NCBI GenBank assembly: GCA_019119225.1
Contig: DWXM01000088.1
Coordinates: forward strand, 1 to 64,000
Reading direction: 5' to 3'
Source of the DNA: Candidatus Nosocomiicoccus stercorigallinarum
GTDB lineage: Bacteria; Bacillota; Bacilli; Staphylococcales; Salinicoccaceae
Length of the DNA: 64,000 bases
A program made the translations under genes and the position numbers. The notes beneath the pieces were generated by a model that did no database searches, was not told where the DNA came from, and worked only from the letters and a program-made list of their open reading frames with translations. This document shows positions 2,356 through 26,781 of this stretch, piece by piece (the stretch's first letter is position 1; the number at the start of each line of letters is the position of its first letter).

Positions 2356-2384
2356 TTGCATTTTCAAGTAAATTAAAATATAAT
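2356..2384 (+). promoter_or_regulatory. Sigma-A promoter for candidate sRNA
   Basis: TTGCAT (2356-2361) - 17 nt - TATAAT (2379-2384). Confidence 0.65.
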
Positions 2385-2390
2385 GAGAAT

Positions 2391-2540
2391 ATAGTAAGAC
2401 ATAGAGAACGACAGTGCTAAGCAGATGTCACTCACCGGTAGCACCGAAGTGCTAGATATCATATTATTATCTGTTAATCGTAGACTAAGAATGTCTACAA
2501 AACCCCTCATTAAGTTGCCATCTTAATGAGGGGTTTATTT
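2391..2540 (+). ncRNA. Candidate structured small RNA, no recognised family
   Basis: No ORF; promoter upstream; hairpins CAGAT/ATCTG, TAGCAC-CGAA-GTGCTA, GTAGAC/GTCTAC, and a 15-bp terminator stem AAACCCCTCATTAAG/CTTAATGAGGGGTTT. Confidence 0.55.
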
Positions 2541-2574: not shown

Positions 2575-3252
2575 TTAATCTACTTTAAACCAAGCTGCTT
2601 CACTAACACCATCATCAAATTTGATTAGGAATGGTTTATCTTTAGGAGCAGGTCTAGCAACTTTACCACTATTACTACCACCGCTAAAGATTTCTTTAGA
2701 TTCAAATTCGTTTGGGATTGTTGCGAATTCACTAGGTGCGCCAGACCCTTCTTCATCGTAAATTAAAACATCATCTGATGCCCAAAATTCATAATCTTCA
2801 TCTTCTAAAGATGCTAACTTATAATCAAGTTCGAATACTACCCATTCAAAATCTTCGTCATCATATTCTTCGTAAGAAGAGTATTCATCCTGCATTAGTT
2901 CTAGAGCTTCTTGACCACGAACAACATTATCGACTTTAATTTCAGCAACACCAGTCACTTCATCGCCATCGTCGTTATAAGTTAAAACTTTTATTTTTGC
3001 TGTATCACCAAGTTTAAGTGGTTGTGTACGTGAACCTGTGTCTTTTACATCTGATTTTTCATCTTGATTAACATTTGGTTCATTGTTGCTTGAAGAATCT
3101 TCATCATTTGAATCTGATTCATTTGTTGTTACAGCTTCTTCATTAATATCATCTTCTTGTTCTGTTGTTTCACCACCACTACATGCTGCAAGTAGTACTA
3201 GCATTGCAGAACTTGTTAATAAAGTGTAAAATTTTTTGTTCATATTATCCAC
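2575..3252 (-). CDS. Acidic lipoprotein with lipobox LLAACSGG, unknown function
   Basis: Signal peptide and lipobox, low-complexity acidic linker, then a globular domain. Confidence 0.75.
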   Translation of the reverse strand: MDNMNKKFYTLLTSSAMLVLLAACSGGETTEQEDDINEEAVTTNESDSNDEDSSSNNEPNVNQDEKSDVKDTGSRTQPLKLGDTAKIKVLTYNDDGDEVTGVAEIKVDNVVRGQEALELMQDEYSSYEEYDDEDFEWVVFELDYKLASLEDEDYEFWASDDVLIYDEEGSGAPSEFATIPNEFESKEIFSGGSNSGKVARPAPKDKPFLIKFDDGVSEAAWFKVD

Positions 3253-3406
3253 CCTTTAAAAATTTTATTGAACATTACTCATTAAAGATATCATTAAAAA
3301 TATTATAAAGCTATATCTATTTATCTTTATACGAGATAGAATTATTGCTTATATATATGTAGATAGAGATATGTTAAAATAACTAATGATTATGGAGGTG
3401 GAGGCT

Positions 3407-4237
3407 TTGAATTTTTTTAGTAAAAACAGAATGATTTTGATTATATTTTCAGTAATCCTCCTTATATTAATGATTGGATTTTCTGTTTCAGATCGTACAT
3501 ATACGACGAAAGCTGAAATGTTTGTCGGTGATTCTGTTGCGTCTTCTCAAAAAGCGATTGGTGGGCCTTTTAATGTAATTGGTAGTATATTTGGTCCTTC
3601 TAAAAAAGAAAAAGAACTTGAGGCAAAACTTGATATGTTACCTCAGCTTGAAGCAGATGTTAAACGTCTTGAAGAAGAGAATAATAAGTTAAAAGAAGCG
3701 TTAGATGTCTCTTCTAAACTCGACTATGAAACAATTAACGCAAGAGTTATATCTCGTTCACCAGATCAGTGGTTAAATAGTTTTACGATTGATAAAGGAA
3801 CGAAAGATGGTATTAGTGAAGGTATGGCTGTGACAACACCAAAAGGTTTAATCGGTGTTGTGAAACGTGCGAATGGTAATTCAAGTTTTGTAGAACTTAT
3901 TACGACAGATTCAGCGAAGAAAAACATTTCTGTTGAAATTCATAATGGCGATAAAAAGCATTACGGCACGATTGAAAATTACGATGAAGAAACGAACACG
4001 TTAGTCGTTGGTAATATTGTCAATGATGGTAAAATTAAAGAAGGATCTAAAGTATATACGTCAGGGTTAACGAGTATTTTTCCTGAAGGAATCATCGTTG
4101 GTGAAGTTGTTGATACTGAAAATGATAGTTATGGCTTAAGTCAAAACGCAAACGTAAAAATGGAAAGTGACACTAATGATTTAGATATGATTTTTGTCAT
4201 TAAACAAGACCCTAAAACAACTGAGGATGCTAAATAA
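3407..4237 (+). CDS. mreC: Rod shape-determining protein MreC
   Basis: TM plus coiled coil plus MreC core (INARVISRSPDQWLNSFTIDKG); TTG 3407 directly after GGAGGTGGAGG preferred over ORF start 3386. Confidence 0.9.
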   Translation: MNFFSKNRMILIIFSVILLILMIGFSVSDRTYTTKAEMFVGDSVASSQKAIGGPFNVIGSIFGPSKKEKELEAKLDMLPQLEADVKRLEEENNKLKEALDVSSKLDYETINARVISRSPDQWLNSFTIDKGTKDGISEGMAVTTPKGLIGVVKRANGNSSFVELITTDSAKKNISVEIHNGDKKHYGTIENYDEETNTLVVGNIVNDGKIKEGSKVYTSGLTSIFPEGIIVGEVVDTENDSYGLSQNANVKMESDTNDLDMIFVIKQDPKTTEDAK

Positions 4238-26588: not shown

Positions 26589-26781
26589 AAGAGAAGCACC
26601 TGATGAGTGCGTGCTGTGTCGGCTTCATTTTGACCTAACACCTATATAAAAGGGAGCTTGGCGTTCAAATATGATTGACATGCCCTATAAGGGACTTCAT
26701 GAGTATTTGACAGAGCACCCACCTGCACAAAGCAGGCCAAATAATCCGACAACTACACACGGCTATATCGGATGCTTCATT
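26589..26781 (+). ncRNA. ssrS: 6S RNA
   Basis: About 190 nt, non-coding; closing stem GAAGCA (26593-26598)/TGCTTC (26773-26778), inner TGTCGG/CCGACA, central bubble with CACCCACCTGCacaaaGCAGG hairpin; promoter upstream and terminator downstream. Confidence 0.7.

Follow-up and report, generated by a model that had tools for sequence, protein, structure and literature searches.

The locus studied here raises the question of whether a 309-nt gap between two minus-strand open reading frames (ORFs; gap at 2266–2574) contains a free-standing RNA gene on the plus strand and, if so, on what such an RNA would act. The gap lies in a window (the whole stretch of DNA analyzed) of 64,000 nucleotides from Candidatus Nosocomiicoccus stercorigallinarum, for which an original prediction had proposed an orphan small RNA (sRNA) with mutually exclusive hairpins in a gap of ~300 nt. 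The proposed promoter elements are present, with a TTGCAT −35 hexamer (2356–2361, plus strand) followed after a 17-nt spacer by TATAAT (2379–2384). The −35 hexamer is of the TTG type and stands, N17 before the −10, at the same place in relatives, and the −10 region (TTAAAATATAATGAGAATATA; 2373–2393, plus strand) is nearly identical across Nosocomiicoccus, Phocicoccus, and Jeotgalicoccus; from the spacing, transcription is predicted to start near 2390–2392. A candidate Fur box in the −10 region (TATAATGAGAATATA) was dropped, as only a weak half-site was seen by eye. Sequence and folding both indicated an intrinsic terminator (2500–2536, plus strand) with the expected 15-bp stem (2500–2514/2522–2536), a 7-nt loop, and an imperfect U-tract (TTTATTTAT). 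Upstream of it, the hairpin GTAGAC (2480–2485)/GTCTAC (2493–2498), also foreseen, folds on the plus strand (2480–2498) and is limited to Nosocomiicoccus and Phocicoccus, the latter carrying a hairpin of other sequence at this place. Terminator-like hairpins were found 3′ of the core in the copies folded, and their sequences differ. Overall, the plus-strand element (2379–2536) consists of a promoter of the sigma-A type, a core of three RNA helices, the extra hairpin, and the terminator. The predicted transcript folds far better than dinucleotide shuffles (z = −6.0; 0/200), a signal much of which is given by the terminator.

Alignments with copies from relatives gave a consensus order of ACATA, P1, yyGATAG, P2, AGATATCATAT..., P3 (GATA/TATC), and terminator. 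In the window, all on the plus strand, the invariant 5′ ACATA (2399–2403; 49/49 copies) is followed by helix P1 (2404–2433), formed by GAG 2404–2406 with CTC 2431–2433, GACA 2410–2413 with TGTC 2426–2429, and TGC 2415–2417 with GCA 2421–2423; by GGTAG (2437–2441), the local version of the conserved GATAG linker; by helix P2 (2439–2454), in which TAGCAC 2439–2444 pairs with GTGCTA 2449–2454 around the loop CGAA; by the near-invariant core CTAGATATCATAT (2452–2464); and by helix P3 (2455–2471), in which GATA 2455–2458 pairs with TATC 2468–2471 around a variable AU-rich loop. CTAGATATCAT and TATCT are nearly invariant across the family copies, and the core 11-mer is almost confined to this sRNA in the family genomes. 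The mutually exclusive hairpins had been deduced from two copies of GTGCTA (2414–2419 and 2449–2454), either of which could pair with the single TAGCAC (2439–2444). These positions are right, and pairing with the second copy is the conserved P2, but the upstream copy reads GTGCCTA in G002 and is absent outside the genus, which breaks the competing pairs. Similarly, the CAGAT of a CAGAT/ATCTG stem said to enclose P2 reads CAAAT in both sister species. Since CAGAT and the upstream GTGCTA are both broken in sister species, we attribute the alternative pairing to a chance repeat.

A check for covariation in relatives had been suggested with the original prediction, and compensatory changes were found in P1 and P2 across the genera of the family. 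Among 46 distinct sequences, 87.4% of alignment cells were paired (33–51% when slid by 1–3 columns), double changes occurred at 9 of the 16 model pairs, and double-change cells numbered 84 vs. 31 in shuffles, these pairing and double-change counts being somewhat inflated because the alignment was fitted to the covariance model. P1 changed on both sides in 5/6 model pairs, with its arms replaced wholesale (AAGGAGG/CCTCCTT, AGAACGA/TCGTTCT, AAGGTC/GACCTT, AGGTCAC/GTGGCCT, and GAG...GACA/TGTC.CTC in the window). An arm-swap test that depends little on the alignment yielded a mean of −10.75 kcal/mol for P1 arms paired with their own partners and −5.28 kcal/mol when arms were swapped between clades, although some clades have arms that pair with a foreign partner as well as, or better than, with their own. 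For P2, 92% of the cells were paired and double changes were present in 4/6 pairs; in G003, TA is changed to CG as a double change. P3 formed standard pairs in 99.5% of the cells, and since its pairs hardly vary, covariation neither supports nor opposes it. Judged from the alignment, compensatory change in P1 and P2 is strong, and a structure conserved in this manner is what is expected of a trans-acting sRNA.

Is this RNA already known, and how far does it extend? A search of the whole window with the Rfam 15 covariance models at the gathering cut-off detected only a 6S RNA (26594–26778, plus strand; RF00013, 73 bits) and an L21 ribosomal protein leader before the L21 gene (4810–4881, plus strand; RF00559), with nothing at the sRNA. 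In a permissive search of the sRNA region, the best hit reached 18 bits and all hits lay under the cut-offs; nor did Rfam match the sRNA itself at related loci, in line with the original prediction, in which no familiar RNA family could be matched. With E-values as low as 2e-25, DNA searches located the element in both other Nosocomiicoccus genomes and in two genomes from another genus. In a third genus, nine genomes matched at the promoter, with the motif CTAGATATCATATTAT at the proper distance after it. The first of two covariance models detected the sRNA in every genus of the family; on inspection, its weak matches had the same layout, and Lacicoccus and Salinicoccus carried two copies, a and b. 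A second model, built without the promoter and applied to one genome per species (E-values are rough), found the sRNA in 33/33 family genomes (Nosocomiicoccus, Phocicoccus, Jeotgalicoccus, Lacicoccus, Salinicoccus, and the genus of G003), in 0/124 other genomes of the order, and in 0/297 class-sample genomes outside the family. Nine genomes chosen from outside the family but within the order gave no match at an E cut-off of 10, and no such RNA was seen by eye upstream of mreC in four other-family genomes of the order. When 84,980 species genomes were scanned for the exact pattern, the Salinicoccaceae-type family came up together with 13 scattered matches elsewhere, and viral contigs gave one match; on rescoring, these outside matches reached at most 32 bits or gave no score, and those inspected lacked the layout, so they were rejected as homologs. 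Among open-licence PMC papers, none reported an sRNA for the Salinicoccaceae group. On sequence grounds, this is an undescribed sRNA family, present in every Salinicoccaceae-type genome examined, of which the window holds the Nosocomiicoccus member; it adds to this group a family-wide RNA gene with a well-supported structure.

We then considered the genomic surroundings, in which gene names other than mreC and folA come from reading translations. In Nosocomiicoccus the sRNA lies between a folA-side 198-aa gene and mreC. The window genome has an additional 225-aa lipoprotein-like ORF (2575–3252, minus strand) between the sRNA and mreC, which is missing in the sister genome G001, implying a recent insertion or loss; this ORF gave a weak DUF7537 match below the cut-off. 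The original prediction had found no plus-strand gene downstream, which holds for the next gene, but mreC follows at 3386–4237 on the plus strand and comes directly after the sRNA in G001. If the intergenic stretch were structured by chance, or were the 3′ UTR of the minus-strand gene 2575–3252 (which the prediction had named as a competing source), this would fit with the terminator stem also lying at the 3′ end of that gene and with the weak T-run of the plus strand. Plus-strand conservation and covariation are, however, family-wide, and G001 keeps the sRNA without the minus-strand gene, which refutes this explanation of the plus-strand conservation and renders it highly improbable as an account of the locus.

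In G002, also of Nosocomiicoccus, the sRNA is turned around with respect to mreC. Other genera place the sRNA elsewhere: in Phocicoccus it is flanked by radC and mreC, and in Jeotgalicoccus by an RlmA-like methyltransferase gene and an sprT-like gene. Two of the Jeotgalicoccus loci also carry a SAM riboswitch ~0.6–0.7 kb from the sRNA (L034 794–896 and L044 818–920, both minus strand), with a methionine-importer-type ABC ATPase among the neighbors. In Salinicoccus and Lacicoccus, the a copies precede an ABC exporter or other genes and the b copies precede mreC. Downstream genes are of at least six kinds (mreC, sprT-like, ABC exporter, M20-type peptidase, aminotransferase, and 198-aa membrane protein). 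If the RNA were instead a leader or attenuator acting in cis on the gene downstream (ancestrally mreC), this would explain why in G001, Phocicoccus, G003, and the b copies examined the core is followed within ~310 nt by mreC in the same orientation. A riboswitch or attenuator would be expected to have a constant downstream gene and an antiterminator; instead, the downstream genes differ between genomes, an opposite-strand gene intervenes before mreC in the window, the sRNA of G002 faces the other way, and no antiterminator complementarity was detected in Nosocomiicoccus, Jeotgalicoccus, Phocicoccus, G003, or nearly all Lacicoccus copies. The exception is the a copy of Salinicoccus, described below, and with it taken into account we hold a leader function for the family to be quite unlikely, although some copies may control mreC in cis. 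The changing context favors a free-standing RNA gene and, as the adjacent genes differ between genera, a trans-acting sRNA is the best reading, as expected of such a gene with its own promoter and intrinsic terminator, its unfixed neighborhood, and its covarying helices. These features, along with the conserved promoter and the lack of an Rfam match, bear out the earlier preference for an orphan trans-acting sRNA over a riboswitch.

The a copies of Salinicoccus (e.g., L076 2417–2558, L072 8267–8405, L075 4038–4174, and L082 5074–5209) contain within P1 the Shine-Dalgarno sequence GGAGG, after which an ATG begins a frame of 21 codons; this arrangement is present in 11/11 genomes examined (the frame of G021 by eye). 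The length of this frame is conserved and the peptide is not; since nearly all changes are non-synonymous, a selected 21-aa peptide found no support. In these copies, which lie mostly upstream of an ABC exporter pair, the P1 3′ arm is complementary to the terminator 5′ arm (z ~−1.8 to −3.5); this pairing and the Shine-Dalgarno sequence ahead of the ORF are what speak for a leader here, and the Salinicoccus a copy is possibly an attenuator derived from the same RNA. The bmrB gene upstream of bmrCD in Bacillus is a ribosome-mediated attenuator, and the Salinicoccus a copy resembles it in preceding an ABC exporter pair and in combining a Shine-Dalgarno sequence, a short ORF, and P1-arm/terminator complementarity. 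Unlike bmrB, the family shows this attenuator-like feature only in Salinicoccus, and the window member has neither such an ORF nor such complementarity.

For the window, we consider it likely that the locus is the gene of a trans-acting regulatory sRNA of ~145–150 nt, whose transcription would begin at a dedicated sigma-A promoter and stop at a dedicated terminator, and which would act on mRNAs. In the mechanism that we propose, P1, whose sequence is free to change, P2, and P3 would stack around the near-invariant core. Action would most likely be post-transcriptional, with the C/U-rich 3′ strand of P1 and the P1–P2 linker pairing with mRNAs near the ribosome-binding site, and the core may serve as a structural or protein-binding module that stabilizes or delivers the sRNA. 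The complement of the core, ATGATATCTAG, occurs in the family genomes almost only in sRNA genes, with no conserved site elsewhere; for this reason an antisense seed at the core was dropped, and a structural or protein-binding role for the core is more likely. The same absence of a conserved complementary site, and a core that stays near-invariant while the sequence of P1 changes freely, would also suit an RNA that titrates or recruits an RNA-binding protein by its core, with P1 as a mere scaffold. Against this stand that the sequence names no protein partner and that pairing is how most known Bacillota sRNAs act; purely protein-mediated action seems unlikely to us.

Returning to pairing with mRNAs, the P1 3′ strand of the Salinicoccus a copies binds a consensus Shine-Dalgarno sequence at ~−13.5 kcal/mol (shuffles ~−6), and that of Lacicoccus is also complementary. 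In Nosocomiicoccus (the window), Jeotgalicoccus, and Phocicoccus, such complementarity did not exceed shuffles, so that a general anti-Shine-Dalgarno model fits Salinicoccus a and Lacicoccus but not the window. One specific candidate, a TCACTCACC/GGTGAGTGA match at the start of walJ in the three Nosocomiicoccus genomes, was rejected because it is due to the C-terminal codons of walI and is absent in Phocicoccus despite the same RNA motif; genome matches to a pairing pattern of this type were not clearly above a control pattern.

What could control the sRNA? In Jeotgalicoccus, Lacicoccus, Salinicoccus, and G003, ATTACA-N5-(A/G/T)TTACA precedes the a-type promoters that were scanned, with Salinicoccus albus (L082a) as the one exception. 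This box lies 41–42 nt from the −35 hexamer (31 nt in G003, about one helical turn closer) and is expected ~0.003 times per promoter from shuffling. The WalR motif of Staphylococcus aureus is TGTHH[N]6WGTNDD, its orientation is immaterial, and sites upstream of the −35 are tied to positive regulation (PMC10746227). Read on the opposite strand, the box fits this motif in Jeotgalicoccus, Lacicoccus a, Salinicoccus a (except L082a), and G003. Genome-wide, four genomes contained 20 sites vs. 3 for the reversed pattern, and boxes in the same orientation stand before LysM-NlpC/P60, LysM-CHAP, LysM, amidase, and VanY-type genes. Peptidoglycan hydrolase-type genes are of the kind controlled by WalKR (YycFG), an essential regulator of cell-wall turnover in Bacillota. 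From the motif fit and the box before hydrolase genes, the boxed sRNA copies are predicted to be members of the WalKR regulon, and WalR is expected to activate one copy in each of Jeotgalicoccus, Lacicoccus, Salinicoccus, and G003; in these, mRNA control by the sRNA would be tied to cell-wall turnover.

In the window, in L002 and L003, and in Phocicoccus, the 130 nt that precede the RNA core contain no WalR box, so that no WalR input is visible in Nosocomiicoccus or Phocicoccus. The box is also missing from the b-copy promoters, save for one b copy, in which the relaxed motif matches once, at a different position and in a different orientation. Tentatively, and with somewhat more doubt than confidence, we suggest that the sRNA is an RNA arm of WalKR, whose ancestral copy was activated by WalR along with the hydrolases, whose input was later lost in Nosocomiicoccus and Phocicoccus, and which in Salinicoccus and Lacicoccus also has a second copy independent of WalR. 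Open-licence papers yielded no sRNA that WalR controls; the opposite case, in which SprX acts on walR, appears as a citation (reference 46 in PMC10746227). That WalKR also controls a regulatory RNA is a prediction testable in several genera.

Two regulated sRNA families of other Bacillota also offer close comparisons. The csRNAs of streptococci are small, multi-copy, CiaR-controlled RNAs with their own terminators and a pyrimidine-rich strand able to meet Shine-Dalgarno sequences. The Salinicoccaceae sRNA is likewise small, multi-copy in some genomes, and equipped with its own terminator and such a strand, and it is predicted to be under an OmpR-family response regulator acting, as for the csRNAs, via a direct repeat of 11-bp period; however, we found no sequence relation (no Rfam match), the predicted regulator is WalR and not CiaR, and the CTAGATATCATAT core and P1–P2–P3 layout are its own. 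Listeria has the LhrC family, multicopy sRNAs controlled by LisRK and tied to envelope stress. Two-component control (here predicted) and duplicated sRNA genes are shared with LhrC, but there is no Rfam match, the window member lacks the UCCC-loop signature, and the layout differs.

Apart from the sRNA, a limited number of genes across four genera, encoding LysM-CHAP, LysM-NlpC/P60, amidase, VanY, and lipoproteins, are marked by a box of the form RTTACA-N5-RTTACA (L211–L230), and we put this set forward as a draft WalKR regulon for the family.
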